Shown: in pieces, positions 2 to 18,692 of the stretch
Position numbering within the stretch: position 1 is the stretch's first letter
How the letters are laid out: the number at the start of each line of letters is the position of its first letter
Source of the DNA: an uncultured bacterium
GTDB taxonomy: Bacteria > UBP6 > UBA1177
DNA length: 64,000 nt
Reading direction: 5' to 3'
Assembly (NCBI GenBank): GCA_905233945.1
Contig: CAJOFY010000004.1
Coordinates: 1-64,000, forward strand
The notes under the pieces: model-generated
Told to the model about the DNA's origin: nothing
Database searches by the model: none
The model's input: the letters and a program-made list of their open reading frames with translations, nothing else
Translations under genes and position numbers: made by a program

Positions 2-913
2 AGTGAAAACAGGCGTCAGATAGCCGCAGACGGGACAATTTTCGAGGTTTTGGAAGACGGAACAATCAAGCGGATAGGGAAATTATCGGAGGAGGGCAAT
101 TTTGAGCCGTTCAGAACGCCGAAGAATTGGAAGTGTCCGCAGTGCGGAACGGAAAATGAGAGTGGAGACAATTTCTGCGGTAAATGCGGAACGAAGAAGC
201 CGGAAGTAAATTTTGCTGATACTCAGCCATTGGCAAAAAAATGTGCAAAATGCGGCGCACAGCTTTCTGATGAAGCTCTTTTTTGTTCTAATTGCGGAGC
301 AAAGCGTAAAAAATGCTGCGGAGAATTTCTTGATGCCGGATTTAAATTCTGCCCTAAATGCGGGAAACCGGTTGACGCAGAAGGAAGCCATGAAGATAAA
401 GAGGCGAAACCGGTAGATGCAGAAGAAATCCGTGAAAATAAATGGGCCAAACCGGTAGATGCAGAAGAAAGCCAGGAAGATAAAGAAGTGAAACCGGTTG
501 AACAAAAGAAAACAGAAGAACAGATGATGATGGATCCGGATAATTATATCGATAAAGGTGATTATATAGAATTGGTTCATCCTGTTGGAAATATCCGGAT
601 GATCCAGAAAGATTGTATTAGAGAGAAAGGATGGCTTTTTTCTTATTCCAGATTTGACTGGGAAGAGGCAATGAAACTTGCGAAAGAACTTGGAATAGGT
701 GGCTTCAGCGACTGGCGAGTTCCGACAAAAGAAGAGCTCGAAATAATATATAAAATCAAGGATATTTGTGGAATCAAAAAAAATGATGACTGGTTCTGGT
801 CTTCATCTATCAGGTCTGATAATACAGATTGTCCCTGGATCGTGAGTTTTGAAGATGGGTATGTGTTCGACGACTATAAGTCATACAGTTACCATGTCCG
901 CTGTGTAAGGTAG
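2..913 (+). CDS. Zinc-ribbon and DUF1566 (Lcl) protein, 5' end outside the window
   Basis: The frame is open back to base 2, upstream of the first TTG at 50, so the gene begins before the window. The first visible residues (ADGTIFEVLEDGTIKRIGKL) match the first half of the N-terminal module of the proteins at 8746, 9215 and 12577. Instead of the second half there are three CxxC zinc ribbons (CPQCG..CGKCG, CAKCG..CSNCG, CCGE..CPKCG). A linker of about three KPVDAEE-type repeats follows, then a C-terminal DUF1566 domain with DWRVPT, WSSS and YHVRCVR signatures. No signal peptide or helix is visible, so a cytoplasmic location is likely. The function is unknown. Lcl domains have a C-type-lectin-like fold and are usually binding modules. 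Confidence 0.8.
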   Translation, partial: SENRRQIAADGTIFEVLEDGTIKRIGKLSEEGNFEPFRTPKNWKCPQCGTENESGDNFCGKCGTKKPEVNFADTQPLAKKCAKCGAQLSDEALFCSNCGAKRKKCCGEFLDAGFKFCPKCGKPVDAEGSHEDKEAKPVDAEEIRENKWAKPVDAEESQEDKEVKPVEQKKTEEQMMMDPDNYIDKGDYIELVHPVGNIRMIQKDCIREKGWLFSYSRFDWEEAMKLAKELGIGGFSDWRVPTKEELEIIYKIKDICGIKKNDDWFWSSSIRSDNTDCPWIVSFEDGYVFDDYKSYSYHVRCVR

Positions 914-915
914 CA

Positions 916-947
916 CTTCGATTCCAACGACCGCTCCGGAACCGAAG
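916..947 (+). terminator. Possible terminator hairpin after the first gene
   Basis: CTTCGATTCC (916-925) can pair with GGAACCGAAG (938-947) with one mismatch around a 12-base loop. A T-rich stretch follows about 20 bases later rather than directly, so this is a weak intrinsic-terminator candidate. It could equally be a structural or protein-binding site. Confidence 0.3.
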
Positions 948-1021
948 CACAGCGACCGTTTTCCACTCATTTTTTGTCTTTTCCTAACAAAAATCCATCC
1001 CTGACGATATATTCCAAAAAG

Positions 1022-1062
1022 TTGACAATATCCGATAAAAAGCTACAAAAACACGTTTTTGT
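1022..1062 (+). promoter_or_regulatory. Promoter with overlapping inverted repeat, upstream of the GTPase/SEDS/PBP genes
   Basis: TTGACA (1022-1027) and TACAAA (1044-1049) are 16 bases apart, a good sigma-70-type pair. An inverted repeat, ACAAAAA (1045-1051) and TTTTTGT (1056-1062) around CACG, covers the -10 and the likely start of transcription. It could be an operator. This is the only clear promoter seen ahead of the gene run starting at 1108. Confidence 0.5.
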
Positions 1063-1107
1063 AACTTTGAAATTTAACAAATGATTCTGAATCAATGGAG
1101 GTAAACT

Positions 1108-1584
1108 GTGGTTGAAGAGTTTATTTTGTTTGCAGCGGCAATATTGGTGTTGTGCACCATTGCTTTTATCGTGAAAAATACGGTGTGGTTTCATGTTCGT
1201 AATCTGTGGAACAATATTTTCTTACAGCCACAAAGCCTGAGTAAAAATAGAAAAAAATATGTCAGAATTGTTAAAAAAGATCCGAAACCGACAGAAATAA
1301 TTAAAGAAATAAAAGGGGAAGAGTTAGAGATTACAATAAATGACAAAGGTGAGCTCGTCTTGGAGGACGGTCCCAGGAGCAACGAGAAGTGGTATCGGAT
1401 AAAATTCGATGCTGAAACTGAACAAGACGATGACGGCCTTTATCTGAAGCTTACGCGCCCCGGTGAAAACACACCGACAACAATTTATAACAACACCGTG
1501 GAAGAAAGGGACTTTAATATAGATAACAAGACGATTCATCTTGTTTTTGTTTATGTTAATATTCAAATTTACGGAAAAGCTTAA
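1108..1584 (+). CDS. Small single-helix membrane protein of unknown function
   Basis: The protein has 158 residues and starts at GTG 1108 behind GGAGG. Residues 4-24 form one transmembrane helix. A basic stretch (about 45-60) follows, and then a roughly 90-residue acidic, beta-rich domain with no family I recognise. It is the first gene of a run whose next members are a GTPase-like protein (16 bases downstream), a membrane protein, a SEDS polymerase and a PBP. It may be an anchor or sensor subunit of that assembly, but this is inferred from position only. Confidence 0.7.
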   Translation: MVEEFILFAAAILVLCTIAFIVKNTVWFHVRNLWNNIFLQPQSLSKNRKKYVRIVKKDPKPTEIIKEIKGEELEITINDKGELVLEDGPRSNEKWYRIKFDAETEQDDDGLYLKLTRPGENTPTTIYNNTVEERDFNIDNKTIHLVFVYVNIQIYGKA

Positions 1585-1599
1585 AAAAGGAGCGGCATT

Positions 1600-2754
1600 A
1601 TGACAAAATTACTTGGCATAGGGGATGCAATATATAAAGAAGGAACATCAATACAAATCTCGAAACCGGATGACTGGGGTTGGTATTATCGCAATGATGA
1701 AGGTGATGTGGCTGTAATTCAAGTCAAGAAAAACTGGATGGGAAAATGGGTGAAAAGCATACCATGCCCGGATAAACAGCAGAATATTGAAATAGAAGTG
1801 GCGCTTTACAATAATAAGGTCAGCAGAGAGAAAAACGGTTTTCCCTACGAAGTTTTAGCAGAAATCAGAAAAAAGGGGAGTCGCGAAAAGGTTATAACGC
1901 CACTAAAACGTATATCGCTGAAACGCTATTTTGAAGATGGACAAGTGACAGAACTTGTTAAAGAATCCGGTTATTATCCCACACTTTTTATTTTTATGCT
2001 TGGCTCTACAACCAACGGAAAAACATGCTTTCTTAACTCGTTGGGGACCAGTGCAGTAAGAAAAAGAGTTCAAAGACGACAAATTCGCTATTTTAATGTA
2101 GAAAGAACTGAAATAAAAAAACCTTTAGATCCTACAAAATTGGAAGTAATAGAATTTAAACCATTCTATTTCTTATTAAAAGAAAACGGAAAAGACAAAA
2201 ACAAAGTTATCGCTTTTATTGTTGATTTGGCCGGCGAATCAATAAATTGTGAAGACCCGAAAAATGCTGCAGTAATACTTAGAAATTCAATTAGAGAATA
2301 TGCATCGGGGATTTTTGTTGTCAGAAGTGCTAAATGGTTGATTAACCAGAAGGATCAGATAATAAATCAATATGATCCCTCAGAGTATATATTTCAGCAT
2401 CTCGATGATGATATTAAAGATAAACTCTGCTATGTTCTTACCGGAGCAGATCTTTTAAAGAAAGAACTTGAGTGTAATCGTCTGGATAAGAAACTCAGTG
2501 AAGAACTTAATTTAACTCCGGACGGTCCGATTTTCAGACCAGTGGGCAACACAGAGCAAATGTATGAAAATATGGCAATAACATCCTATATTATGAATAT
2601 TTTTGATGCAGACATAGTAGACTCTCCATGCTTTGCTGTCAGCTGCTGTTGTGATATCGAAGACGAGAAAGGAAATAAACTGCTGGACTTTGGACAAAGT
2701 TATAATACTGATCTGCCGATCACATATATGCTGCAGAGACTTATAAAAAGATGA
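1600..2754 (+). CDS. P-loop GTPase-like protein of a SEDS/PBP gene cluster
   Basis: This is a 384-residue soluble protein. A Walker A motif (GSTTNGKT, residues 135-142) is followed by DLAGE (209-213) in the place of the DxxG switch II motif, and by LTGADLL (280-286) resembling the TKxD/NKxD specificity region. A unique N-terminal domain of about 125 residues precedes the P-loop. The layout resembles GTPases of bacterial GTPase-associated systems, but that is an inference and nucleotide preference cannot be read from the sequence. It overlaps the next gene by four bases (ATGA), which suggests coupled translation with the 2751 membrane protein. Confidence 0.65.
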   Translation: MTKLLGIGDAIYKEGTSIQISKPDDWGWYYRNDEGDVAVIQVKKNWMGKWVKSIPCPDKQQNIEIEVALYNNKVSREKNGFPYEVLAEIRKKGSREKVITPLKRISLKRYFEDGQVTELVKESGYYPTLFIFMLGSTTNGKTCFLNSLGTSAVRKRVQRRQIRYFNVERTEIKKPLDPTKLEVIEFKPFYFLLKENGKDKNKVIAFIVDLAGESINCEDPKNAAVILRNSIREYASGIFVVRSAKWLINQKDQIINQYDPSEYIFQHLDDDIKDKLCYVLTGADLLKKELECNRLDKKLSEELNLTPDGPIFRPVGNTEQMYENMAITSYIMNIFDADIVDSPCFAVSCCCDIEDEKGNKLLDFGQSYNTDLPITYMLQRLIKR

Positions 2755-4424
2755 AGACCACAATTCTTATCCATGAAAACGAACACTGGATTTATTATCC
2801 GGATACTTCCGATAAAATCGACCATGTCTCTGACACAATAGCTGACGGGTGCTTCTTTTTTGATCCTGTTAAATGTTCTTCTGTCACATCGGTCATACCG
2901 CAGCCGCCGACGGAAGAAGACCCGCGAGCCGGGCACCTGATGATCAATCTGCATCTGGATGCAGACGAGCTGGATTGGTTCCTGGATAGACCCGGCAGAA
3001 TCAAGGGATTGAAGGAGTGGCTTGGAAACATATCCAAAGCGGAGGCAAAGCGGTACGCTTTGGACATGCCGGCACTGCCAAAAAAAGAAATTGAAACAAA
3101 GTCAATCGAATTCGATGCAAAAACGGCTTCACTCAGTCCTGCTGAGGAGGCGATCGTTTTGCAGATTATGACCGCGGTTATCCAAAGCGACAATCCTGAT
3201 ATTTTTATAATAGCCAGACATCAAAGAGACGATTTGATAATCAGTGTGCTTAAATCATTACCCAAGGCATTCAGAAAAGTAGAAATTTCCATGCCGTGGT
3301 CTTCGGGGATGGATGCCGGAAGAATAAGCATAACCGATGAAGATAAACTTCCGATGTTGTCCAAGCCGATGTTTGTTGTTACAGAGTCTTCTCAAAAACT
3401 GGCTTCCAAGTTCCCCGAACAGTTTGCAATCGCGGAAGCATTTCTTTCCGACACCAGCCTTTCATATGAAAAGATTGAGGTTTCTGATATTGCGAAGGCA
3501 ATTCATCTGGAATCAAAAGGTCTTTACGAAGATGCAGCAAATGTTTTTAAGTCTGAAAAATTTAAAGGTGTTTGGCAAAAACTTCATCCCCATAAAGTGC
3601 CTCAGATAAAAACAGGTAATGCCGGCAACAAGCCGCAGTCCGCGCAACAAAAACATTATCCTGCTGTTAAACAAGCAAGAGGTGCAGCGAGTGCGGTTCA
3701 ATCTGAAAACAGTGTTAAAAAGCAGGCAGCAGGTGCGCGGTTCACGGATATTATCCTGTTTGCCGTTGAAACAGCGCTGCTTGTTATAGAATTTATTTAC
3801 TATTCAGTGACCAAGGAGTTTTTTATGGATTTGTTTTCTTTGTCATTTGTTTTAGCCTTTTTCGCCGTTTTCCTGTCGTATTTGTCGGAAAAATATTGGA
3901 CAAGAGATAGATTAAAGGCTGTGTTAGTCAATGTCGGAGGTCACGATCATCTCAATCTTGAAGAAAATCAGTGCGACAGCGACATGATAGATCTGACAAA
4001 AAGGTTCTATCAGGCGGAATTCGGTGGACCCGAGGTACGGTTTGACGGGATAACGCTCAGAGTGGTAATTGACAAGAAGTTGGAACCGCATGACATTCTG
4101 GCAAAAGTCTTTTTGAACGATAGCAGATTCGTGATAAACGGAACGGTATCGGTGATTTCAGGTCCTGTCGCCGAGAATAGAGACAATGAAGTCATAGAAC
4201 ATTATGATTTCACTAAAGTAAAAAACTACACGGGCTCAGAAGAAATAAAACTGTATGATAATGATCTTATATACATAAAACAGAATGGGAAAACCGTTGC
4301 AGCATTTCGTTTCCTGATGGTTGACGATATATTGTCTCAACCCGACAAAAACAGAATACGCAACAAAATCACTGTTGAAAATCAGCAACCTGAAACGTCA
4401 GAAGAGGAACAAGATGAATTATAA
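2751..4424 (+). CDS. Membrane protein, possibly GAP1-like partner of the upstream GTPase
   Basis: The protein has 557 residues. The N-terminal soluble part (1-330) contains a stretch around 125-190 (VLQIMTAVIQ.. followed by LKSLPKAFRKVEISMPW) that resembles the middle region of GTPase-associated protein 1, where a long helix leads to an LP..LR..LSF motif. This likeness is from memory and weak. Two transmembrane helices follow at about 335-385. The C-terminal domain (about 395-557) is soluble and unrecognised. The gene overlaps its neighbours on both sides, so it is probably made together with the GTPase and the SEDS protein and could link them at the membrane. Confidence 0.55.
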   Translation: MKTTILIHENEHWIYYPDTSDKIDHVSDTIADGCFFFDPVKCSSVTSVIPQPPTEEDPRAGHLMINLHLDADELDWFLDRPGRIKGLKEWLGNISKAEAKRYALDMPALPKKEIETKSIEFDAKTASLSPAEEAIVLQIMTAVIQSDNPDIFIIARHQRDDLIISVLKSLPKAFRKVEISMPWSSGMDAGRISITDEDKLPMLSKPMFVVTESSQKLASKFPEQFAIAEAFLSDTSLSYEKIEVSDIAKAIHLESKGLYEDAANVFKSEKFKGVWQKLHPHKVPQIKTGNAGNKPQSAQQKHYPAVKQARGAASAVQSENSVKKQAAGARFTDIILFAVETALLVIEFIYYSVTKEFFMDLFSLSFVLAFFAVFLSYLSEKYWTRDRLKAVLVNVGGHDHLNLEENQCDSDMIDLTKRFYQAEFGGPEVRFDGITLRVVIDKKLEPHDILAKVFLNDSRFVINGTVSVISGPVAENRDNEVIEHYDFTKVKNYTGSEEIKLYDNDLIYIKQNGKTVAAFRFLMVDDILSQPDKNRIRNKITVENQQPETSEEEQDEL

Positions 4425-6531
4425 TAAATTGAGTAAGATAATCAAATCAGGAGGACTGGCTCTTATTTCGCTTTTGTTTTTTCAATGGATACTTTACTTC
4501 GCGATTGTTGATCGTAATGCAAACAGACTGCCTATCCGCCATTGGGTTACGATGAATACTTTTCAAGAAAACCTGCCGGAATCAAAAGAACTGACAATCG
4601 TTCATAAGAAAACTTATGAAACCGATTCTGTTGAAATTGTCAGGGACCATTTCGGTTTTGATTTCAACATAACAACCCAGCTTTTAGTGCTGTCTATTTT
4701 AGCGGTTGTCTTATTCATGATATTTCTGAAAATGGGTATCTATCCCCCTCCGTTTTTGATTCCGTTGTTTATAATTTTAACAATTTCAATCTTTTACCAT
4801 AATTACTTGGGCCATCGTCTTAGTAATAAAGTTTTTGTGGAAGCGGTTCTGTGCGAAGAAAATTGTGATAGCGGAGACAAAAATATCGAAATTAAGCGGT
4901 GCGAGGAAGGCAAGTGCAACGATTACAAGATTATTCCCGACAAATATAAAAGCAAAACAGAAGCGAATGTCAAGGAGCTTAGGATCGATAGGGAAAAGTT
5001 CAAAAAAGCTTTTAAAGTTTACCCCGCAGATCATAAGACACCGATTACACTGACAAAAGAAGATCCTGATGAAAATACGAGCGAAAACAATAAATATCTC
5101 AGAGCATCGAGTGATTCAAAAAATCATTTTTTTGCAATATTAATAGGGATCTTCTTCTTCCTTTCTGCAATGATTTTTGCAAAATGTTTTTCAAAAATCA
5201 AAAACTTCTCTGATTGCGAATTCCATTTCCTGCTTGTCGGGAGCATAGCGCTGTGTATTCTTCTGAAATCACTGTCCGTTATAGACACAACATCATTGGT
5301 CGAGGTTCTAAAGTTGCTTGCGATAGTTTTTACTGTCGTAGGATATGAGAAAATCAGTAAAAACAAGGTGAATTTATGGCTTTACATAGTGATAGTTGCC
5401 GTCATCGAGATTGGAATGCTGGCATTCTTTAAGAGTTGGGGTGACATGCTTATTTTGGGATTTACAGTTTTATTGGTGCTGTTTATAACCCCTCTGACAT
5501 TTAAGTTGAAGAAAATTTTCCTTGTTCCCATAGTATTACTTTTTATTGTTGCAATTGCATTCGGCTCCTATTTCTATATGAAAATCCACGAACCTGATTC
5601 CCGCCTTTTATGGCGGCTGTCAGATACCTGGGACGGAACAGAACATCCTCAGTATTTGTGTGAGATAGCGCTAGGGAATAAAAAACTGCAGTCCTTTTCT
5701 GAAGAGAGTTCATTGGTCATTCAGACAGCGTTCGGCAAATTAGAAAATAATACTCTGAAATTCTTTTCAAAGAAACCTTCCGCCGAAATACGTATTAAAG
5801 GTGATGATAAAGATGTTGTTGTGGTAAATAACTGTAAAAATATTGAAAATCAAGACGGGAAAAAGCAGTTTAAAAAATGCGATTCGGTCTACAATGTTTC
5901 AAAAATTTCTTATGAAAGCGGTGAAGTGGAGTTCGCAGCGGATTCACCTTTCTATAAACATGATTGCAGACAGATAAACACAGATCCGCGTGTGGCAATT
6001 TTTGCTATGCTGAAGGACGGATTTTCAGGCGGCGGTCACGAAGGTTTCAAAGAAAACACATTCCTGCTTGACAACAACTATATGTATACAGATTTTGTTT
6101 TCTGCGGACTCGCAGCATTTTTCGGAATATGGCTCGCTCTTTTGGTTGCCGGATGTCTGTTTATTCTTTTGTTGAACTGCAATATACAGCCGAAACAATG
6201 CGGCAACAACTATAAACACTTTCTCTATTCCAATATAATAGTGGCGATGTTGGGAATCCAGGTAATCATACATATCGGCGCCAATCTTAATGTCGTTCCT
6301 TTTACAGGGGTTATTCTGCCGTTTTTGTCTAGAGGAATGGCAAACACATTCGTCTCTTTTATGGCACTCGGATTCGCTCTGGGCGGACTTGTTTCCGATG
6401 ACTTTATAGAAAAAAAACCTGTGAAAACGGCATGGTCGGTTTTTGAGAAAATCAGAAGTGTTTTTAAACAAAAGTGTGAACCAAAGTACGAAAAGTTATT
6501 CGGCTTCATCAATAACAAACTAAGTAAATGA
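4414..6531 (+). CDS. Divergent SEDS (RodA/FtsW/SpoVE-type) glycan polymerase
   Basis: This is a 705-residue polytopic membrane protein. I chose ATG 4414 (after GAGGAAC) because it overlaps the upstream stop by 11 bases. SEDS signatures lie near the C-terminus: YTDFVF with the conserved Asp at 560, GIQVIIHIGANLNVVPFTG (614-632), then LPFLSRG (635-641). WGDMLIL earlier matches the family's acidic helix motif. It differs from normal RodA/FtsW proteins, which I recall at about 370-430 residues. Two large, Cys-containing loops probably face the periplasm, and the Glu pair that usually follows the TDF motif is replaced by AAFFG. The PBP gene follows directly, as for known SEDS-bPBP pairs. Catalytic activity is plausible but unproven. 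Confidence 0.75.
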   Translation: MNYNKLSKIIKSGGLALISLLFFQWILYFAIVDRNANRLPIRHWVTMNTFQENLPESKELTIVHKKTYETDSVEIVRDHFGFDFNITTQLLVLSILAVVLFMIFLKMGIYPPPFLIPLFIILTISIFYHNYLGHRLSNKVFVEAVLCEENCDSGDKNIEIKRCEEGKCNDYKIIPDKYKSKTEANVKELRIDREKFKKAFKVYPADHKTPITLTKEDPDENTSENNKYLRASSDSKNHFFAILIGIFFFLSAMIFAKCFSKIKNFSDCEFHFLLVGSIALCILLKSLSVIDTTSLVEVLKLLAIVFTVVGYEKISKNKVNLWLYIVIVAVIEIGMLAFFKSWGDMLILGFTVLLVLFITPLTFKLKKIFLVPIVLLFIVAIAFGSYFYMKIHEPDSRLLWRLSDTWDGTEHPQYLCEIALGNKKLQSFSEESSLVIQTAFGKLENNTLKFFSKKPSAEIRIKGDDKDVVVVNNCKNIENQDGKKQFKKCDSVYNVSKISYESGEVEFAADSPFYKHDCRQINTDPRVAIFAMLKDGFSGGGHEGFKENTFLLDNNYMYTDFVFCGLAAFFGIWLALLVAGCLFILLLNCNIQPKQCGNNYKHFLYSNIIVAMLGIQVIIHIGANLNVVPFTGVILPFLSRGMANTFVSFMALGFALGGLVSDDFIEKKPVKTAWSVFEKIRSVFKQKCEPKYEKLFGFINNKLSK

Positions 6532-6541
6532 AAGGTGAGCT

Positions 6542-8722
6542 ATGAAAGAAAAAAAGAATAATCCGATACAGCCGGTCAATTTTGTTGGAAGGATTCCTCA
6601 TTTTATATGCGGATTTCTGGCTTTCATAATACTTTTGGGATTATTTCACATCTACGGCAACGGGCAAAAGGTATTTGATTCAACATTGCATTCTGAAAGA
6701 CAGAAATTGAGCACACAGGTTTCTGTCGACGGAGAACTTCAGATTTCCAAATATAAATTTGTAAAGAATATCTGGGCAAGAAATGAAAAGACGGAGAAAG
6801 AAAACGGTGAAAAGAAATTTCTTCTTTGGGAGTCGCTTCCAGATTTCAATGCTAAAATTTCGAAAGATATAGAGGTTCTTTCATGTGAAAATAAAAAAGG
6901 AGATGACTGGTCTAAAGAAAAAACGGAAAAAACCAACGCATGGTGCAGTCTGATAGGCACAACTCCTCAGGCAATCGATGCCAAAAACGGTAAAAATCGA
7001 ATAAGGCAGATCGTAAATAAAAGTGATGAAATTGAAATAAAAGATAAAAACGGGAATCCTACGGGAAAATACTATGATTATGACGGAAACAAAGAACTGT
7101 TCGACCTGCCGCCATATGATTTCTGGAAAGGAATCCAGAAATTCCCGGACAATGAAATTTCTAAAAACGGGGAATATACTCTTTCCATTTATCCTTCAGT
7201 ACAGGAAGGCATGTATGAATTTATGAGTAAACACAATATGACAGGCTCTGTTTTTGCCTACAGGCCTTCCAACGGAGATATTTACTGTATGGCTTCAACT
7301 CCAGGCTGGACTGAACGGGAAAAGAAGATGGTCGTAAAAAAAGGCGTCTATAAGGAAATTCCGGGACAACCCGGTTTCTATTATCCTGAACGTGAGAAGA
7401 TGGAAGTTCCCAAAGACGGTTCCCAGATGAATAAGAATTTCTACTCTTTTACTCCGGGATCAACAATGAAGCCTCTCACTCTTCTTCTTTTGAAAGATCA
7501 AGGTATAGATTTAAACAGCCTGAAATTTTCAGTCACCCACGAAGACTCGGGATACGGAGGAGATTCACATGTCTTAAAGGATGGTACAGCAGCTCATTGT
7601 TCGGCGAATCACTCCCAAAAAGAACAGTCGGCTTCAGACGGTCTCGGTAATTCATGCAACAGCTTTTTTGCGATGAGTGCCGAGAAATTGAATCTCAAAA
7701 CAGCCAAAGAAACACTCGAAGCTATGGATTTTTATGTGGAGGAATACACTGGAGATCCCAGGGAAACGAGAACTGACGCTCTCAAATATGCAAGTGCAGT
7801 TGATAAAATTCCGTATACTAAAAACGCGCTTCCACTTGAAAAAACGATGACGCACAGTTTTAGAAATGTCGAGAATTTTATCGGTGAGGGAAGTCTGCTG
7901 GTTTCACCGATTGATATGGCTGTTTTAGCAGCATTGTTCGGAAAACTTTCCGAAGATATAAACAGCCGGGTTTACTTTCCGCGAATCTGGCTGCCGGTCG
8001 ATGAAAACAAACAGAATGAAGGTTCTCCGGAACTGTTGCTGACAGAAAAAAATCCCGCCGGAAATGAGCATGTTGCCAAACTTTCGGATTTTGTATCGAC
8101 ACGCAAAGAGTCTATCGCTGAGGTCGGCACTATCTGGAAAAAGGCTTTCAAAGAACACTATCGCCATAACAACCAGACATGGCCGGCACGTAAACATTTA
8201 GACCAAAATAAATTAACTGATTGGTCGCAATGGATTGACATGGCTAAAACAGGAACGGTTAACAGGAGACCGGATAAAACAGATCCCAGTTATGGTTGTC
8301 ACAAATACAAATACCATAAAGATAAAGGTTACCAATGTGCTACGGCACCAAACAAGGCAGAACACAGAAAACAGCGGACTCTCTCTCTGTACTCGGAAGA
8401 GCTCGATTTGGCGGCATATATCGTTATTGAAAATTATGGCGGAGTATCTGCCGGCAACAGTGAGATCAAACTTGATTCGACATCGCTGATGCTCACAAGG
8501 CTTGTTGCAGAGGCTCTCGGGAAAAAACTCAATTCGGAACAACAAGCAATAGAGGATGAGCAGTGGGACAGATTTAACGGCAGAGCGGTTAAACAGCAGC
8601 AGTTCAGACAGCAGCTCAAAAAAGCTCCCGCAAAACAAAAAGGCAGCAAAACTCAAAACAATAAAAAGCAGCAGCCAAAAAAAGTTCCTGCAAAACAAAA
8701 AGGCAAATCTAAGAAAAGATAA
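6542..8722 (+). CDS. Class B-like penicillin-binding transpeptidase paired with the SEDS protein
   Basis: The protein has 726 residues and one N-terminal membrane helix (about 20-38). The transpeptidase domain keeps all three active-site motifs: STMK (Ser307, Lys310), SCN (371-373) and KTGT (569-572). The region before it (40-230) is not a recognisable PBP dimerisation domain. An insert rich in Tyr and charged residues sits just before the SxxK motif. The tail is a Lys/Gln/Pro-rich repeat (PAKQKG twice). It lies 10 bases behind the SEDS gene with its own AGGTGAG site. The likely role is peptide cross-linking of glycan made by the SEDS partner. A second, conventional PBP2 is present at 34896, so this one is accessory. 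Confidence 0.85.
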   Translation: MKEKKNNPIQPVNFVGRIPHFICGFLAFIILLGLFHIYGNGQKVFDSTLHSERQKLSTQVSVDGELQISKYKFVKNIWARNEKTEKENGEKKFLLWESLPDFNAKISKDIEVLSCENKKGDDWSKEKTEKTNAWCSLIGTTPQAIDAKNGKNRIRQIVNKSDEIEIKDKNGNPTGKYYDYDGNKELFDLPPYDFWKGIQKFPDNEISKNGEYTLSIYPSVQEGMYEFMSKHNMTGSVFAYRPSNGDIYCMASTPGWTEREKKMVVKKGVYKEIPGQPGFYYPEREKMEVPKDGSQMNKNFYSFTPGSTMKPLTLLLLKDQGIDLNSLKFSVTHEDSGYGGDSHVLKDGTAAHCSANHSQKEQSASDGLGNSCNSFFAMSAEKLNLKTAKETLEAMDFYVEEYTGDPRETRTDALKYASAVDKIPYTKNALPLEKTMTHSFRNVENFIGEGSLLVSPIDMAVLAALFGKLSEDINSRVYFPRIWLPVDENKQNEGSPELLLTEKNPAGNEHVAKLSDFVSTRKESIAEVGTIWKKAFKEHYRHNNQTWPARKHLDQNKLTDWSQWIDMAKTGTVNRRPDKTDPSYGCHKYKYHKDKGYQCATAPNKAEHRKQRTLSLYSEELDLAAYIVIENYGGVSAGNSEIKLDSTSLMLTRLVAEALGKKLNSEQQAIEDEQWDRFNGRAVKQQQFRQQLKKAPAKQKGSKTQNNKKQQPKKVPAKQKGKSKKR

Positions 8723-8745
8723 TCTTCTTAAATAAGGAGAAATAC

Positions 8746-9189
8746 ATGGGAATGTCTGAAAAGCCGCAGAACGGAATGAACATCACACCTGACGGCACAA
8801 TTTACGAGATACTGGAAGACGGTACAATAAAACGAATCGGCAAAGTTTCGCCTGATGGCGAATTCGAGCCGTTCGGAGGGCCGAAGGACGGTGTCAGCGT
8901 CAGAGACGGATTCATATATCGTATAATCAACGGGGAAGAGCAGGAAATCGGCAGAATATTGCCGAACGGTGAGATAGAATCAAATTCAAAGACAGTTGCA
9001 AAGCAGCAAAAGGAGAAGGGCGGCTGTCTCGGCTGTTTCGGAAAAATGATACTTGTCGGCTTTATATTGCTGCTGATTGCTGCTGTGGGTTTTGCAGTCT
9101 TTGTAGGTTATATCTCAATTGAAGAGAATATAGATGTCGAAGAAGTTCTGATAAAACTTTTTGACGAATTCTCCCGTATGATAAAATAA
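8746..9189 (+). CDS. Short membrane-anchored copy of the duplicated GTI-module family
   Basis: This 147-residue protein starts at ATG 8746 behind AAGGAG. Residues 12-80 form the module shared with 2-913, 9215 and 12577: a first unit (GTIYEILEDGTIKRIG..PDGEFEPF) and a shorter second unit (GFIYRIINGEEQEIGRILPNGEIE). This looks like an internal duplication of a 25-30 residue beta motif. A Gly/Cys linker and one membrane helix (about 100-123) follow, with a short acidic tail outside. There is no lectin-like domain, unlike its relatives. By position it belongs to the PBP/SEDS gene run. Function unknown. Confidence 0.75.
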   Translation: MGMSEKPQNGMNITPDGTIYEILEDGTIKRIGKVSPDGEFEPFGGPKDGVSVRDGFIYRIINGEEQEIGRILPNGEIESNSKTVAKQQKEKGGCLGCFGKMILVGFILLLIAAVGFAVFVGYISIEENIDVEEVLIKLFDEFSRMIK

Positions 9190-9214
9190 ACGCCGGCAGC
9201 AGGAGAGAAATACC

Positions 9215-10372
9215 ATGGGAATGCCTGAAACGCCGCAGAACGGAATGAATATCACGCCTGACGGAACAATATACGAGATGCTGGAAGACGGAACGATAAA
9301 GCGGATAGGGAAGGTATCATCAAACGGCGAGTTCGAGCCGTTCGGCGGCCCGAAGGACGGTGTCTGTGTCAGAGACGGCTTCATATACCGTGTGATCAAC
9401 GGAAAGGAACAGAAAATCGGTCGAATACTGCCTAACGGAGATATAGAATCTATAAGTCAAAGAATTAAAAGCGAAGCAGAAATTTCCAGAAACAAGGTGA
9501 AAATAGTTGCAATAGTGAGTGTTCTGATCGCCTTTATTATCGGGGCAGGAATCTATCTTTTTGAAGAAGAGCAGAAAGGCAAAGAACCGCTTGAGAAAGT
9601 GCTCAATACGCCTAAAAGTAATGCGGAGACGCCGCAGCCTGCTGAAGATGATCGCAAAGCGTGTGAATTTGCGCGTTCAAACTCTCAAAACAATGCAGAA
9701 GCCTGGGAATTTTACCTTAAAGAGTTTCCAGAGGGATGGTGTGCTGATGAAGCAAAAGAAGTGATAAGCAGATATCAGGAAATTGAAAGAGAGAAAGAAA
9801 TCACAGCACAGAAGGTCAAAGAAGTGGAAGCCTATCAGAAAGCGAAAGAACTTAACACCCGTGCGGCATGGGAAGATTATCTTCGTGAGTTCCCGGAAGG
9901 AGAACATGTATTTGAAGCTAAATTCAATAAAGATAAGATGAAAAAAATCGGCAGTCTTGAGTGGTCAGATCGCTCGCAAAAAAATATGGACTGGAATGCG
10001 GCGAAACAATACTGCAAAAATCTGACAGAAGGCGGATACAATGACTGGAGGCTGCCGAATATTGACGAACTCAGAACAACTATCAGAAACTGCTCTAAAA
10101 CAGAGACTGGCGGGCAGTGCAAGGTCAGTGGGAAAAACGGGCGTTTATCAAGAGGAGATTGGAATCCTGAAGGTTCGTGTTATTGTGAAAGCAGAAACAA
10201 CAACGGCGGTTATTACAGCAAACTTGGGGATGATGATAATGTCTGGCTTTGGTCGTCTTCTACTCGGTCAGATAATACAGATGCCGCATGGGGCGTGTAT
10301 TTCAGAAGTGGGCGTGTGGGCAGCCACTATAAGTCGTACGAGTACGATGCCTATGTTCGTTGTGTCAGGTAG
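9215..10372 (+). CDS. GTI-module, membrane helix, repeat and DUF1566 protein
   Basis: The protein has 385 residues. The duplicated N-terminal module (12-80) is nearly identical to that of the previous gene. A single membrane helix follows at about 93-114. Two copies of a helical motif come next (AWEFYLKEFPEGWCADEAK and AWEDYLREFPEGEHVFEAK). The C-terminal DUF1566/Lcl domain (about 245-385) has WNAAKQYC, NDWRLPN, WSSSTRSDNTD and YVRCVR. The topology suggests a cytoplasmic GTI module and a lectin-like domain outside the inner membrane, so the protein could signal across it. No catalytic residues are recognised. Confidence 0.8.
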   Translation: MGMPETPQNGMNITPDGTIYEMLEDGTIKRIGKVSSNGEFEPFGGPKDGVCVRDGFIYRVINGKEQKIGRILPNGDIESISQRIKSEAEISRNKVKIVAIVSVLIAFIIGAGIYLFEEEQKGKEPLEKVLNTPKSNAETPQPAEDDRKACEFARSNSQNNAEAWEFYLKEFPEGWCADEAKEVISRYQEIEREKEITAQKVKEVEAYQKAKELNTRAAWEDYLREFPEGEHVFEAKFNKDKMKKIGSLEWSDRSQKNMDWNAAKQYCKNLTEGGYNDWRLPNIDELRTTIRNCSKTETGGQCKVSGKNGRLSRGDWNPEGSCYCESRNNNGGYYSKLGDDDNVWLWSSSTRSDNTDAAWGVYFRSGRVGSHYKSYEYDAYVRCVR

Positions 10373-10394
10373 ATATGTTTAACTAGGTTTTGTT

Positions 10395-11189
10395 ATGGAA
10401 AAGTACTTGCTGCAGCTCCTCGGGGCGTTTGGATCTTTTGTCAACCTGATCTACTGGATTGTGAGATTTGTTGTACTGCTCACGCCTGAAAACAGGAAAA
10501 ACATTCGTTCAAATGTACGGGATATCAAATCAGTAGCAACCTCGAATAAAATGCATCTGATTATAGCCATTGCTATATTTCTTGTTGCTGTTGCATTTCT
10601 TGTTTTGTCCCTTTTTGCAGGCGGCGCGTTTTGGACGGTACCGGGCGGTGACGTAAATCAGGAGGAGGAAAATGCTACTATCGAGTTCGGCGGCGGCAAA
10701 AATAAGATTGAGTGGATTGTCATAGATAAAAATAGGAAATATTGGACTCTGATGAGTAAAAATTGTTTTGAGGCGAGACCGTGGCAGGAGACTCTTAAAG
10801 ATGGGAAAAAACTTAAATGGGAAAAAAGCTCGCTGAAAGATTGGCTCAACAGTGAGTTCGTCAAAAATTTTTCCGAATCCGAAAAAAGTACGATGGTTGA
10901 ATTTAGAAAAGGTGAATTTGTGACTCTTCTGGATGAAAAACAGGCAAATAAATTAAAAAAGGAAGATAAAGACTTGTTGATTTGTATTCCCGTTTCAGAA
11001 GAAAAAGCTGATGAGAAAGCAAAAGGGTGGTGGCTTCAAACGCCTGGAACAGAGAAACACTGTGTTACATTTGTCGATTCTTTTGGGGATATTTGGTCTA
11101 CCTGCAGCGGATATTCCAATAAAGCCGACAGAAGTTTATATGTCCGGCCTGTAATCAGAAAAAATGTAAGATTGGAGAATAATAAATGA
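10395..11189 (+). CDS. Membrane-anchored DUF6273-type protein
   Basis: The protein has 264 residues. Hydrophobic segments at about 7-30 and 56-79 flank a basic loop. After the second helix, the domain from about 95 to the end has the layout of DUF6273: IEWIVIDKNRKYWTLMSKN, then WLNSEF, then GWWLQTPG, then the closing VRPVIR. This family is related in fold to the formylglycine-enzyme/C-type-lectin superfamily, like the DUF1566 domains next door. Its stop overlaps the next start by four bases (ATGA). It probably presents a binding domain in the periplasm. Ligand unknown. Confidence 0.7.
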   Translation: MEKYLLQLLGAFGSFVNLIYWIVRFVVLLTPENRKNIRSNVRDIKSVATSNKMHLIIAIAIFLVAVAFLVLSLFAGGAFWTVPGGDVNQEEENATIEFGGGKNKIEWIVIDKNRKYWTLMSKNCFEARPWQETLKDGKKLKWEKSSLKDWLNSEFVKNFSESEKSTMVEFRKGEFVTLLDEKQANKLKKEDKDLLICIPVSEEKADEKAKGWWLQTPGTEKHCVTFVDSFGDIWSTCSGYSNKADRSLYVRPVIRKNVRLENNK

Positions 11190-12544
11190 AAAAACTTGCT
11201 GCTTTTATCCTTTTGTTTCTTGTCTTTCATTCTCTTCGGGCATCAGATTTTGTATATCGTGTTCATTTTGTTGAAGCAAAAGGGCTGGAACGTCTGGTGG
11301 ACAGAGATGAAAAAATTTTAAAAAACCAAATAAAAATAATCGAGAAGATTTTTCAGGATAATTTTAATCCCACAGGTTTCAAGCAAATAAATTCCCGTAT
11401 GCTGGAAACAGTCAGAGATGCTTCTTCCGGTGGTGTGGATTTTTCCGATGACGATGACATCGAGACTCCTGTCGTAAATAAAATTATCATAAATAAACTG
11501 AATATCACCCATTCTCTGCGGGGGGAAATCAACAATATGGGGGATGCCTTTTATGTAAAAGTTGTTTTTAACGCCGTAAGCCCGAGTCTTAGAAGGATTG
11601 CTGTCGGCAATTTCGACTGTGCTGTTTCCGACTCGCTTGCAAAATGTACTCGGGAATTCGCAAGAAAATTCGCACAAAATCCAGCCATAATAGAAGAAGG
11701 CAAACGGGCAAACACTGTGGTTCAGCAGGATGAAGAAAAGGAGAAACCACGCCTGATTTACGGTTTTCTTAACGTTTTTCCTTCGGATATCGGCAGATAT
11801 AAGGAAATTCCTTCGGAGATTATAAAAAAAATCAATGCAAGCGATGTATTTAAAGATCAGGATTGTGAAGAATGGCGTGTCCCGACAGAAAACGAGATTG
11901 CTTTGCTTGCCAGTGAGAGTCTTATCTTAAAAAAAAGCGAAAAATACATGACTGATAAAACATCCAGCGGACACCTTAGGCCAGTAGCAGGTTGCAAAAA
12001 ATCGCAGAAAGGAACAGCTTCGCAGAACAACAATCTGCCGCAGTCAGCAGAACCAGAAGTGGTTTACGGTTTCCTCAAGGTTTTTCCGAAAGATTTGGGT
12101 GTAAAAGATTTGGGAGAATTTACAAATAGACCGACAGATATTGTAGCGAAGATCAACTCAAGCAGCGATACAGGGATTTACGGCTGTAAAAACTGGCGGA
12201 TTCCGACTGAAAACGAGGTTGCTTTGCTGGCAGCCATAGGGATTATTTTAAAAGCGGATGATTATTTGTCTATTGACGGAAAAGACCACGGCCTGCTTCG
12301 TCTGGTTGCGGATATGCCTGGATATGAGAGCGAATCTGAAAATCAGAAAAACGGGGATCAGGGACCTGAAAAAGAGACAGCGAAAACACATCCGGACAAA
12401 AAAACTGACAACACAGCTGAACAACGAGAAACAGCAGAGCCTGAATCTGATTTGAAATTGGAACAGGCTTCTCGGTCAAAACAGGAAGAGGCTGCGTCAA
12501 AGCCAGCCGTAAAAGGGTGCTCGGTGGATATTTTTGATTTATAA
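11186..12544 (+). CDS. Exported protein with two tandem DUF1566-like mini-domains
   Basis: The protein has 452 residues with a signal peptide (1-19, cleavage near RASD). The N-terminal domain (20-175) is unrecognised. Two copies of a repeat of about 80 residues follow at about 188-270 and 292-378. They share YGFL.VFP.D.G near the start and WR[VI]PTENE[IV]ALLA in the middle, and end in LRPVA or LRLVA. The WRxPTENE core resembles the DWRLPT motif of DUF1566, so these look like degenerate or minimal Lcl units. The tail is charged, low-complexity sequence rich in Lys, Glu and Thr. It probably acts in the periplasm or at the cell surface. Confidence 0.65.
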   Translation: MKKLAAFILLFLVFHSLRASDFVYRVHFVEAKGLERLVDRDEKILKNQIKIIEKIFQDNFNPTGFKQINSRMLETVRDASSGGVDFSDDDDIETPVVNKIIINKLNITHSLRGEINNMGDAFYVKVVFNAVSPSLRRIAVGNFDCAVSDSLAKCTREFARKFAQNPAIIEEGKRANTVVQQDEEKEKPRLIYGFLNVFPSDIGRYKEIPSEIIKKINASDVFKDQDCEEWRVPTENEIALLASESLILKKSEKYMTDKTSSGHLRPVAGCKKSQKGTASQNNNLPQSAEPEVVYGFLKVFPKDLGVKDLGEFTNRPTDIVAKINSSSDTGIYGCKNWRIPTENEVALLAAIGIILKADDYLSIDGKDHGLLRLVADMPGYESESENQKNGDQGPEKETAKTHPDKKTDNTAEQRETAEPESDLKLEQASRSKQEEAASKPAVKGCSVDIFDL

Positions 12545-12576
12545 TAAAATACAGCAATTCTGAAGGAGGGAACACA

Positions 12577-13374
12577 ATGGGAATGACAGAACAAAAGCCG
12601 CAGAACGGAATGAACATCGCGCCTGACGGCACAATTTACGAGATTTTGGAAGACGGCACAATCAAGCGTATAGGTAAAGTATCTCCTGACGGTAAATTCG
12701 AGCCGTTCGGAGAGCCTAAGGACGATGTACGTGTCAGAGACGGTTTCATATACCGTATAATCAACGGCAAGGAGCAGAAAATCGGTCGGATACTGCCTAA
12801 CGGAGATATAGAATCGGTAAGTCAGAAAATCAAAAGCGAAGCGGAAATATCCAGAAACAAGGTGAAAATTGTGACGATAGTTTGTTGCCTGATAGCGCTT
12901 CTTGCGGCTGCAGGAGCAGGAATCTATCTTTTTGAAGCAAAGGAAAAGCGCACTCAGGAACGGATGCAGGATGAAGAATACGAAACTAAGATCAAGCCTG
13001 TGGTTGACGAATATCTGCAGGAAACATCCCCAAAAGCTGAAAGACTGAACTTTTATATAGAAAAGCTGAAACTGATGAAATTAAGCCTGAAATACGAAGA
13101 AAACAAGAAAAAAGCAGATGAAATAATTTCAAATATAAAGAGCCGGAAGGCTGATGTCGAGACAAAGACAGCGGCTCAGGCAGTATTAAAACCGGAACCA
13201 AAGAAAGCAGAACCTCAGCTCGAACAGCCGAAACCTGAAGAACCAAAGGAAACAACCGTCAAGTTTGAGTCTAAGAAAGAAGAATCCGGAACAGAAGCAG
13301 TAAAGCTGGAGACGAAGCAGGCAGAAGACAAGCCAGCTGCGAAACATGAAACCAAGTCAACCGCTACGAAATAA
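12577..13374 (+). CDS. GTI-module membrane protein, 5' part of a gene interrupted by a TAA
   Basis: This is a 265-residue product. The duplicated module (13-82) and membrane helix (about 94-117) closely match the 9215 protein. A helical stretch and a long Lys/Glu/Pro/Thr-rich linker follow. The frame closes at TAA 13372-13374, but the same frame continues without further stops through a DUF1566 domain to 13803. The full architecture therefore equals that of 9215-10372, and I infer a nonsense interruption, a natural read-through site or a sequence error. If translated only to the stop, the protein would lack its lectin-like domain. Confidence 0.7.
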   Translation: MGMTEQKPQNGMNIAPDGTIYEILEDGTIKRIGKVSPDGKFEPFGEPKDDVRVRDGFIYRIINGKEQKIGRILPNGDIESVSQKIKSEAEISRNKVKIVTIVCCLIALLAAAGAGIYLFEAKEKRTQERMQDEEYETKIKPVVDEYLQETSPKAERLNFYIEKLKLMKLSLKYEENKKKADEIISNIKSRKADVETKTAAQAVLKPEPKKAEPQLEQPKPEEPKETTVKFESKKEESGTEAVKLETKQAEDKPAAKHETKSTATK

Positions 13375-13803
13375 CAGCCAGGTAAGGTACAGAATACAAA
13401 GAAAAAAACAAGAAGGTCCTGGTCCTCGCGCTCTTCATATGCAATGAACTGGAATGCTGCCAAACAATACTGTGATGACCTGACTGAAGACAGTTACGAC
13501 GGCTGGAGACTGCCTAACATTGATGAATTAAGGACACTCATTGATGAAAAACATTCAGGAACAACATCAGGCGGGAGTTGCAGAATAAGCGAGAATACGG
13601 GCTCTCTTTCTCAAGGATTCTGGACGAACAGTGACTGTAAAGGCCGCACCGGCGGTAATTTCAGCAAATCAGGTGATTCGGGTAGACTTTGGTCTTCGTC
13701 AGCCAGACCTCATTCGGGAAATCGCTGGTATGTTGATTTTAGCAGCGGTGAAATTAATCATGCTGGAGCTGAAAACCAATATCATGTCCGTTGTATAAAA
13801 TAA
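13375..13803 (+). pseudogene. DUF1566 3' part of the interrupted gene
   Basis: This is the in-frame continuation of the 12577 gene after the TAA at 13372. It encodes 22 linker residues ending RRSWSSRSSYA and then a DUF1566 domain (WNAAKQYC, DGWRLPN, RLWSSSARP, YHVRCIK). The first ATG is at 13444 (119 residues to the stop at 13801-13803). No ribosome site precedes that ATG, and it falls inside a conserved part of the domain (SxNMDWNAAK in the 9215 protein). An independent start is therefore unlikely. The domain itself shows no damage, so either the interruption is recent or read-through keeps it under selection. Confidence 0.6.
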
Positions 13804-13853
13804 TAATATAATTACTGGCAAAGGATGGTTTTTATCATTTCTATGGGGGAAAA

Positions 13854-14891
13854 ATGAAAAAAATTATTATTGTTTTGGTGTCGCTTTTGTTGACTATCCA
13901 GCTTTTTGCCGTATCTGGAAAACCCAGAATTGCGATTCTTGAGTTTGAAGATACTACAGGCAAATTTTCCAGACAAGATCTTAGTGCATTGAAAAAACAT
14001 TTTAGTATTTATTTCAGACAGCAGTGCAATAACAAATTTATTGTTATAATCGATCCGGATCAGGAAGAACTGATTAAAAAGATGGCTGAAGAATCCGGCA
14101 GAATGGATAGAAATACCGCATACCAATTGGCAAAAAACAGAGGAGTCTCTGCCGATAAAATTCTTTATACAACAATAACTAGAATTGGAAAAAAGTATAG
14201 CGTATCCTCCGAATTGATAGATTTACAAAGAGAAATCACCGACATAGGTATGGCTGGAATTGAACATTTTGACGGAACTCCTGAAGGTTTGCTGGATGCC
14301 TTGCAGTCGGTGGTGCTACAATTGGTAAGACAAGCAGAAAAAGGCTATCATCTTTATGAGCAGGCACAAAATGCTGCGCAACGTGAAAAAGATGCTGAGC
14401 AGGAGAAAAAAGCAAAGGCTGAGGAAGAAAATTCTCGGATTGCAGAAGAACGAAGGGCTATTGCATCAAGACGGGAACTGTTGGGATCTAACGGACGAGA
14501 CTGGTCAGAATCAAGATACGGCAACTGGCATGATGCGAAAAAATATTGCGAGGATCTGGTCTATGGTGGTTACGATGACTGGCGTCTGCCGACAATAAGC
14601 GAACTTAGAACTCTTGTACCGTATTCAGTCTGTTCCAGAACCTATCCGTATGGCGAATGTCCGATAAAAGATTCTGACACATCGCTTTATTCCTATAAGA
14701 AAAGTAAATGTCACTGTGATTATGGCAAAAACAAAAGCAATCCTTTGGGAGATAGAGGAAGAATGTGGTCTTCTTCAATTTGCCAGGGTAATGGCAGGGT
14801 GTGGTATATTTACTTCGGAAGCGGAAGCATTTATTCCGACAAAAACGGTGATGCGTATGATAAGAACGATTTCCGTTGCACAAGAGATTAA
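13854..14891 (+). CDS. Exported CsgG/TolB-like N-domain with C-terminal DUF1566
   Basis: The protein has 345 residues with a signal peptide (1-19). Residues 23-165 begin PRIAILEFEDTTGKFS, the opening beta strand typical of CsgG- and TolB-N-like periplasmic domains that report on or build outer-membrane assemblies. A charged coiled coil (about 165-205) follows. The DUF1566 domain (about 215-345) has WHDAKKYC, DDWRLPT, MWSSS and a variant end FRCTRD in place of YVRCVR. It is the last lectin-like gene of the cluster and has its own GGGGG-rich ribosome site. It may be a periplasmic partner of the membrane-anchored DUF1566 proteins. Confidence 0.75.
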   Translation: MKKIIIVLVSLLLTIQLFAVSGKPRIAILEFEDTTGKFSRQDLSALKKHFSIYFRQQCNNKFIVIIDPDQEELIKKMAEESGRMDRNTAYQLAKNRGVSADKILYTTITRIGKKYSVSSELIDLQREITDIGMAGIEHFDGTPEGLLDALQSVVLQLVRQAEKGYHLYEQAQNAAQREKDAEQEKKAKAEEENSRIAEERRAIASRRELLGSNGRDWSESRYGNWHDAKKYCEDLVYGGYDDWRLPTISELRTLVPYSVCSRTYPYGECPIKDSDTSLYSYKKSKCHCDYGKNKSNPLGDRGRMWSSSICQGNGRVWYIYFGSGSIYSDKNGDAYDKNDFRCTRD

Positions 14892-14956
14892 AGTATTAAC
14901 GAAGTGTGACTCCACACAATTTGGATTCCAAAGACTTTGAAAAAAGGATTGAATGC

Positions 14957-14999
14957 ACATCGGATTTAAAAAAACTTCTTGTAATAAAGTCCGATTTGT
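14957..14999. repeat. Imperfect inverted repeat in a gene-free gap
   Basis: The gap 14892-15122 holds no gene. CACATCGGATTT (14957-14968) and AAGTCCGATTTG (14988-14999) form a 12-base inverted repeat with two mismatches around a 19-base AT-rich loop. It could be a weak terminator of the upstream cluster or a binding site. I see nothing else in the gap except a ribosome site (GGAGG) ahead of 15123. Confidence 0.3.
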
Positions 15000-15122
15000 T
15001 TAAAATCTGCCGTTTTGTTGGTTGTTGAATTGATATTTTCGGTGACTGTTCACATATGCCGGAAGTTGCAGATATAATAAAATTTTGAATGGAATGACAT
15101 TTTTCATTATAGGAGGAAAACA

Positions 15123-15458
15123 ATGAACGTAAGACAAGATATAGAGCAAAGGATAGAGCAAAGAATGCACTATCAAATGCAGTTGAAGGATGCGTTAAAA
15201 AAGAAGAAGGCGGCTTTAACCGCTGTTTGTTCATTGGGTTTGTCAGAAACACCGCTCGTAAAACTGTTTAGGGAATCAGACACTACAAGAAAACAGATGT
15301 CTTTTGGTCATACGCCAGCTGGCTGGGTATTTCAAATTCTATGGTTCGGTTTTCTGACAGTAATTACAATGGCCATATTTTGGGTAATCAACATTTTTAA
15401 ATTAATCAATTATGCAGATTTGGTCAATAGATTACAGAAAAAAATAAACTCTTTATAA
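15123..15458 (+). CDS. Small membrane protein of unknown function
   Basis: The protein has 111 residues and an AGGAGG ribosome site. The first half is a charged, probably coiled-coil region (QDIEQRIEQRM..ALKKKKAAL). Residues about 68-92 are one or two closely spaced membrane helices around a PAGW motif. A short basic tail with another amphipathic helix follows. I recognise no family. It stands alone between the lectin-like cluster and the minus-strand rhomboid gene. Confidence 0.6.
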   Translation: MNVRQDIEQRIEQRMHYQMQLKDALKKKKAALTAVCSLGLSETPLVKLFRESDTTRKQMSFGHTPAGWVFQILWFGFLTVITMAIFWVINIFKLINYADLVNRLQKKINSL

Positions 15459-15526
15459 GTGACAAGTATCCGGAATCATAAGAAGGCGATTGGCAGTCTT
15501 TTCAGCGAAACAAAAGAGAAAGTCCG

Positions 15527-16114
15527 TTAATCCAGGATATCATTTTCAATCGATGCGGTTCTTTTATTAAGTTTATATCCCGCCGCAGCACCGACTAAAC
15601 CGCCGATAATGTGAGCGGTATGCGCAATGTTGTCTATTCTTGACAATCCAGTATAGATTTCCTCTCCTAAATATATGAGTGCTACAAGTATAAAAGTCAG
15701 AGGAACTTCTCCGTCTTTAAACCCTGTAAAAGAAGTGAGCAGGATAAATGAAAAAACAATGCCGCTTGCTCCGAGCAGACTTACATTCCAAAAAAATATG
15801 TAATGCACCAGACCTGTCGCCAAAGCCGTCAAAAGCATTATTACAATCAGTTTGTCTGATCCGTATTTTTCCTCCAGCATAGGCCCCAAAAGCAGTATCA
15901 TCAGAGAGTTGCTCCAAAAGTGGTCAAAATTTGCATGCCCGAAAACATGGGTGAAAAATCTCAAGTATGTCATCGGGTCGGAAAGCGAAGAATGATACGT
16001 TACAAATATGACACGATTCACTGTGGGAGTTGTTTCTCCGGCGATAGTTGCGATAAAGCAGATAAATATGAATATCAAAACTACGGGTGAATTGAAGCTC
16101 ACTTTAAACTTCAT
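15527..16114 (-). CDS. Rhomboid-family intramembrane serine protease
   Basis: The protein has 195 residues and about six membrane helices, the minimal bacterial rhomboid layout. The catalytic GASG motif puts the nucleophile at Ser117. The helix-6 motif AHTAHIIGG supplies His168. FTHVFGHANFDHFWSN (about 54-69) matches the conserved H..H..N region that shapes the active site. Rhomboids cleave membrane proteins within their helices. The substrate is unknown, although single-helix proteins of the adjacent cluster are conceivable targets. It is transcribed toward that cluster and away from the Sel1 gene. Confidence 0.9.
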   Translation of the reverse strand: MKFKVSFNSPVVLIFIFICFIATIAGETTPTVNRVIFVTYHSSLSDPMTYLRFFTHVFGHANFDHFWSNSLMILLLGPMLEEKYGSDKLIVIMLLTALATGLVHYIFFWNVSLLGASGIVFSFILLTSFTGFKDGEVPLTFILVALIYLGEEIYTGLSRIDNIAHTAHIIGGLVGAAAGYKLNKRTASIENDILD

Positions 16115-16429
16115 TGCATTCTCCTGATTTTATTTCAGTTTGTGTATCAACACCAAATTTCAACATTGAAACCGGAATTTTTTTCACCACATCTTTTGCC
16201 AAATGTCAAAGAAATTCCTTTATATTTTTCAAAGAATTAAGTGATTAAAAATATTGACAACAAACCACATATGAAATTTTTCTTAAAAAGCGGAAATTTT
16301 TTCTAGATTATCGCTTTGAAATATGTATGGAAGATTATGTGTCTTTTTGAGGTGCAGGCAGAGCTAAAATAAATAAAAACGGAGGGTAAAATGAGGAAAA
16401 ACGTGCTTTTGGTACTAAGGAGTAAGCCG

Positions 16430-16882: not shown

Positions 16883-17007
16883 GCACAAGTATAATTGCAG
16901 GAGCGGAATGTTGTTATAACCGCATTTCTCTCGCATTTTCCGAAAAACTGAGTATAATGCGGCGGTTTTTGTTCTTGTCGTTTTTTTCGACGCCGCCAAT
17001 CTTTTTC

Positions 17008-17031: not shown

Positions 17032-17102
17032 GGGATACCGACATGGGGCGGCGAATCGATAATAACGATAAGAACGATAATAACGATAAGAGAGGAAAAA
17101 TT

Positions 17103-18656: not shown

Positions 18657-18692
18657 TCTGAAATTTTTGGTTTTTTCTAAGAAATTTTTGTT

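Follow-up and report, generated by a model that had tools for sequence, protein, structure and literature searches.

A DO-GTPase-like gene beside a divergent SEDS-PBP pair in an island of atypical composition: a possible acquired, GTPase-linked envelope module

The closest described counterparts of the locus reported here are the pairs formed by a SEDS protein and a class B PBP (RodA-PBP2, FtsW-FtsI and SpoVE-SpoVD), the divisome driven by FtsZ, which is a tubulin-fold cytoskeletal polymer, and the DO-GTPase-GAP1 conflict systems. DO-GTPases are defined, among other features, by a Walker B motif with a conserved Glu (Kaur et al. 2020, PMC7159879). The membrane is where the DO-GTPase systems published so far exert their action, some of them with peptidoglycan-binding domains, and neither SEDS proteins nor PBPs are named among their effectors, with 0 mentions of FtsW in that account (PMC7159879). 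Moreover, a search of the open-access literature found no described set of a GTPase, a SEDS protein and a PBP, which was consistent with the preliminary description of this DNA, where a SEDS-PBP pair with a dedicated GTPase had been regarded as undescribed.

In the present study, a run of five co-directional open reading frames on the + strand, named here by their first positions (1108, 1600, 2751, 4414 and 6542; Table 1), was analyzed in a window comprising the first 64 kb of a 73.8-kb contig, which belongs to a genome of 2.65 Mb that is 99.7% complete. The reading preferred here, to which a probability of about 0.4 is given, is that the run represents an acquired, accessory, GTPase-linked SEDS-PBP envelope module, which may serve in conflict or stress. 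Genes 1600 and 2751 overlap by 4 bases, genes 2751 and 4414 overlap by 11 bases, and a gap of 10 bases separates genes 4414 and 6542, exactly as had been reported. The four genes of the original set were found to be real; however, gene 1108 also belongs to the run, which extends on the same strand past 8722 as far as 14891, no gap exceeding 70 bases. The left flank of the run is missing because the window begins at the contig end. The suggestion that one promoter serves the set was borne out insofar as a consensus TTGACA/TACAAA match was present and GGAGG preceded the GTG start of gene 1108. However, promoter-like matches occurred in the region at chance level (25 found, 19.4 +/- 4.9 expected), and a single promoter for the 1108-8722 run is therefore only plausible.

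Table 1. Coordinates of the features discussed, with the evidence or remark attached to each
Position	Strand	Feature	Basis or remark
50..16882		Island of atypical composition	Right edge lies after 16882 and before znuC (17043); left edge lies past the contig end
50..913	+	Zinc-ribbon and Lcl_C (DUF1566) protein, N-terminus cut by contig end	Upstream, same island
1022..1049	+	Candidate promoter	Exact TTGACA at 1022, 16-base spacer, TACAAA; consensus match only
1108..1584	+	Small protein, one N-terminal helix and a soluble domain, no family	Library search, hydropathy
1600..2754	+	P-loop GTPase-like, DO-GTPase-like protein with an N-terminal domain of ~115 aa	Motifs, DO-GTPase HMM
2751..4424	+	Membrane protein, two-helix hairpin at ~330-380 between two soluble domains, no family	Hydropathy
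4414..6531	+	Very divergent SEDS protein, recognizable part C-terminal only (528-656, Asp 560)	PF01098, HMMs
6542..8722	+	Class B PBP-like transpeptidase, one N-terminal helix, Lys/Gln-rich tail	PF00905, motifs
8746..14891	+	Mostly Lcl_C/DUF1566 and related membrane or secreted proteins	Downstream run, same direction

The product of gene 1600 harbored GSTTNGKT at 135 (Walker A), DLAGE at 209 (Walker B) and TGAD at 281, and the combination of Walker A with a Walker B motif bearing Glu after Gly agreed with the DO-GTPase trait. Compared with the base-recognition motif [NT]KxD, TGAD retained the Asp and had Gly in place of Lys. No model of the Pfam, NCBIfam, PADLOC or PHROGs libraries matched this protein above its cut-off, and the Pfam DO-GTPase families PF19993 and PF19975 gave no match that reached their thresholds. 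An HMM built from nine DO-GTPases collected in this analysis aligned co-linearly with residues 122-379 and scored 18.6 bits, against 2.2 bits for the best shuffled copy; without the P-loop region, the score was 11.4 bits against 3.5 bits for shuffled sequence. Moreover, among 1332 open reading frames this protein was the top match of the HMM outside the training set, with a MobB-like protein at 16.8. When the P-loop was masked in all sequences, it scored 9.8 bits compared with 6.0 for Obg, 3.5 for FtsY and 0.1 for the MeaB-like GTPase of the window, a comparison that is conservative but small because the controls were partly picked by the earlier DO-GTPase search. The P-loop alone was recovered by hhalign with a six-sequence alignment, and the GTPase fold was not recovered by single-sequence structure prediction, which was too poor to use (mean pLDDT 30). 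The original assignment as a GTPase was thus sustained by the motifs and by the whole-domain HMM alignment, and was left unsupported by the Pfam thresholds and the predicted fold. Because of the latter two results, the protein is called only DO-GTPase-like, an assignment that is modestly supported and does not amount to proven membership of the family.

Hydropathy confirmed the membrane hairpin that had been described for the product of gene 2751. The gene occupies the place of GAP1 after the GTPase gene, yet its product has no sequence relation to GAP1; the weak GAP1-like stretch reported previously was rejected, as no Pfam GAP1 match was obtained at E<=5, no match was obtained with hhalign, and the HMM score fell below that of shuffled sequences. 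A search for GAP1-M in the genome was likewise negative. The predicted structure of the N-terminal region of the 2751 product was too poor for use (mean pLDDT 45; best Foldseek E 0.24), and mutual comparison of the 1108 product, the GTPase N-terminal domain, the 2751 C-terminal domain and the loops of the SEDS protein and the PBP revealed no similarity.

The product of gene 4414 matched PF01098 with 32.3 bits (cut-off 26.4), and this match was confined to residues 528-653 in the last third of the protein; all matches in Pfam, NCBIfam and the PDB lay within residues 528-656. When HMMs derived from 30 SEDS proteins were applied to the protein by halves, the C-terminal part scored 56 bits against a locally shuffled maximum of 14.8, whereas the N-terminal half scored below the shuffled controls and was unrecognizable as SEDS. 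The initial SEDS assignment therefore stood by virtue of a significant PF01098 match, but for residues 528-656 only. The hydropathy profile was compatible with ten or more helices and contained two long hydrophilic stretches (134-236 and 393-555), which are unlike ordinary SEDS proteins. Residue D560, within TDFVF, aligned with D255 of Thermus thermophilus RodA, the catalytic Asp of that enzyme. The counterpart of that Asp in Escherichia coli FtsW, D297, is treated as catalytic as well (PMC8765783). The alignment of the 30 SEDS proteins has 56 columns with a conservation of 85% or more, and the 4414 product retained 23 of them; the Arg-Trp of ECL2 had no counterpart and SYGG was replaced by SRGM, such that the positions R137/W138, Y379 and G381, which are essential in FtsW, were lost or changed. 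Mutants of E. coli FtsW altered at R137, W138, Y379 or G381 fail to complement and have dominant-negative effects (PMC8765783). Because residues essential in FtsW are absent or changed, the polymerase activity of the 4414 product is uncertain, as judged from its sequence.

The product of gene 6542 matched PF00905 with 40.5 bits (cut-off 22.1) and contained STMK at 307, SCN at 371 and KTGT at 569, so that the SxxK, SxN and KTG motifs were all found intact, as had been claimed. Residues 40-210 gave no library match to a pedestal (PBP dimer) domain. The conventional PBP2 noted at 34896 was verified, with 546 bits for pbp2_mrdA (cut-off 455), and a conventional RodA was present on another contig of the same genome. 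Because these conventional enzymes exist elsewhere in the genome, the 4414/6542 pair is additional to them, and the view that the gene set is accessory is supported. Nothing observed at the locus pointed to the spore, stalk or predation-related functions that had been suggested for it.

The composition of the region pointed in the same direction. The GC3 of the island genes at 50-16882 was 0.403 +/- 0.040, against 0.509 +/- 0.054 for the 26 other genes of the window, and their codon-adaptation index, with the same 26 genes as reference, was lower; all five genes of the run had this atypical composition. The genes in front of znuC-znuB are gltX and a regulator gene in six sibling genomes, and here the island lies in front of znuC-znuB. 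The gene set looks foreign to this genome, that is, acquired, and its description as accessory agreed with the atypical island, with the absence of the set from sibling genomes and with the presence of RodA and PBP2 elsewhere.

Most of the remaining island genes encode Lcl_C/DUF1566 proteins or paralogues that have an N-terminal domain in common with these. Between 50 and 14891, at least seven Lcl_C/DUF1566 or related proteins lie in one same-strand run, several of them with a common N-terminal domain (PDGTIYEILEDGTIKRIGKV...). Tandem Lcl_C paralogues are located at 8746, 9215 and 12577, with part of another at the contig end, and the repeats among these genes consist of whole-domain paralogues with identities of 69-84%. 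Genes 12577-13374 and 13444-13803, taken together, correspond to the one gene 9215-10372, and the two are likely a split or frameshifted Lcl_C paralogue. DUF1566 domains are reported to adopt the CLec fold and to be frequent targets of diversity-generating retroelements (PMC6642488). Outside the island, lipoprotein-like genes with long Asp/Ser/Asn repeat linkers (of the DNSDSGND type) and Cys-rich repeats were observed at 18693-20486 and 22633-24324. It is very unlikely that the run is a decaying passenger, in which genes acquired without a selected function are diverging and the missing SEDS residues represent decay. The extreme SEDS divergence (23/56 conserved columns kept), the apparent splitting of the neighboring Lcl_C gene (12577/13444) and the absence of the set from siblings would agree with such a history; however, five long intact frames with overlaps over 7.6 kb would be improbable under neutral decay, as would an intact D560 together with intact STMK, SCN and KTGT.

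A rhomboid orthologue, with 70% identity and the only one found in the genus, is present in a sibling of the same genus (locus L071, positions 8165-18998; G012:C65). It adjoins three vWA proteins, a PP2C phosphatase, a protein kinase, a DnaK-like protein and a coiled-coil protein, an arrangement that resembles a TerY-P type set; from this one case, the neighborhood suggests that the rhomboid travels with signaling or conflict genes. Such surroundings bear on a second explanation, namely that the SEDS-PBP pair serves as the effector of a GTPase-centric conflict system, where the altered SEDS protein, once triggered, would bind its partner or lipid II without polymerizing and thereby poison the cell's own wall synthesis or block an invader at the envelope. 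This explanation is considered unlikely. The DO-GTPase-like switch, the island position with CLec-fold neighbors and the vWA, PP2C and kinase genes next to the rhomboid orthologue would fit it, as would the dominant-negative behavior of FtsW mutants at several residues altered in the 4414 product (PMC8765783). However, no GAP1, GASH, EAD or known effector domain and no PADLOC match were detected, SEDS-PBP effectors are absent from the published catalogue as far as it was searched (PMC7159879), and a pure poison would need neither D560 nor the transpeptidase motifs, which are intact.

Relatives of the GTPase, the 2751 product and the full-length SEDS protein were absent from 27 other genomes of the phylum (14 of the same genus) and from samples of 386 genomes. 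No orthologues were detected in plasmids or viral contigs, nor in phages, where the GTPase was the only query; a peptide-pattern search of species genomes found no orthologue, its one match being an ordinary SEDS protein. The SEDS matches in other genomes were ordinary and confined to the C-terminal part of the 4414 product. Two apparent SEDS relatives of 762 aa in siblings were discarded, as they were ordinary RodA proteins of 366 aa within longer open frames. PADLOC and PHROGs gave no matches for the set. Compared with the number of known species these samples are small, and the absences apply to the genomes searched. A lack of conserved gene order in related genomes had been named beforehand as a result that would count against the preliminary description, and it was the outcome in all genomes searched. 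Conservation is thereby lost as support; this does not mean that the set is non-functional, because the genes are absent from those genomes, not rearranged.

Occurrence in one genome also leaves room for uncoupled neighbors, that is, a GTPase-membrane module (1108-1600-2751) and a separate SEDS-PBP pair that share an island and perhaps a transcript without acting on each other. The overlaps indicate co-transcription at most, and the wider run contains many unrelated Lcl_C genes. However, the 11-base overlap ties gene 2751 to the SEDS gene itself, and the 2751 product is a membrane protein, as a link between the two would have to be; this alternative is judged somewhat unlikely. The preferred module and its rivals cannot be told apart by a gene order seen in a single genome.

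According to the preferred module reading, the DO-GTPase-like protein would switch a specialized SEDS-PBP pair through the membrane proteins 1108 and 2751. The 4414 and 6542 products would pair with each other in the manner of RodA-PBP2 and FtsW-FtsI, and the 1108 and 2751 products might carry the nucleotide state of the GTPase to the membrane. The long SEDS loop (393-555) and the PBP with no recognizable pedestal may replace the usual activation interface, and the neighboring CLec-fold Lcl_C proteins might act as sensors of envelope ligands or envelope damage. Under some condition, the module would synthesize or cross-link the wall locally. This reading is favored by the close spacing of the genes (two overlaps, one gap of 10 bases), by the DO-GTPase HMM, which covers the whole domain and scores above shuffles and P-loop controls, by the alignment of D560 with D255 of the T. 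thermophilus RodA and the intact transpeptidase motifs, and by the island composition of all five genes, whose SEDS-PBP pair is additional to RodA and PBP2; the membrane action of the published DO-GTPase systems is a further point in its favor (PMC7159879). It is weakened by the single genome with no conserved neighborhood, by the unrecovered GTPase fold and unmet Pfam DO-GTPase thresholds, and by a SEDS protein that lacks FtsW-essential residues and is of uncertain polymerase activity. GTPase control of the SEDS-PBP enzymes is thus inferred from gene order in one genome. A bolder form, quite unlikely at present, is direct gating of a SEDS-PBP peptidoglycan synthase by a DO-GTPase-type P-loop GTPase in a horizontally acquired conflict or stress island with CLec-fold sensors; such a wall synthase (or wall poison) would be switched by nucleotide and belong to neither the FtsZ nor the MreB machinery. 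If the coupling is true, a SEDS-PBP pair would be under a dedicated P-loop GTPase in place of a cytoskeletal filament, and GTPase-centric conflict systems would be linked to cell-wall synthesis. Furthermore, the altered SEDS protein, which keeps the catalytic Asp and has lost other essential residues, offers a natural test of the residues that polymerization needs.

Compared with the DO-GTPase-GAP1 conflict systems (PMC7159879), the locus similarly has a GTPase-like domain with the Walker B Glu followed by another gene, membrane-associated partners and an accessory position; unlike in those systems, neither GAP1 (N, M and C domains) nor a zinc ribbon, a second GTPase, or a GASH or FNIII protein was detected here. 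Typical DO-GTPase-GAP1-N2 loci were encountered among the controls (L078, L079, L080 and L125), and L078 also contains a vWA protein. With the RodA-PBP2, FtsW-FtsI and SpoVE-SpoVD pairs, the set shares adjacent SEDS and transpeptidase genes, the catalytic Asp in TDFVF, and the SxxK, SxN and KTG motifs. It differs from these pairs in the unrecognizable N-terminal half of the SEDS protein, the changed ECL2 Arg-Trp and SYGG, the two long hydrophilic SEDS stretches, the PBP with no recognizable pedestal, and the GTPase-like gene in the run. The FtsZ-driven divisome resembles the proposed module insofar as, in general terms, a GTPase exerts an effect on a pair of SEDS and PBP enzymes, whereas the GTPase-like protein described here has a P-loop and is encoded by its own gene next to the pair.
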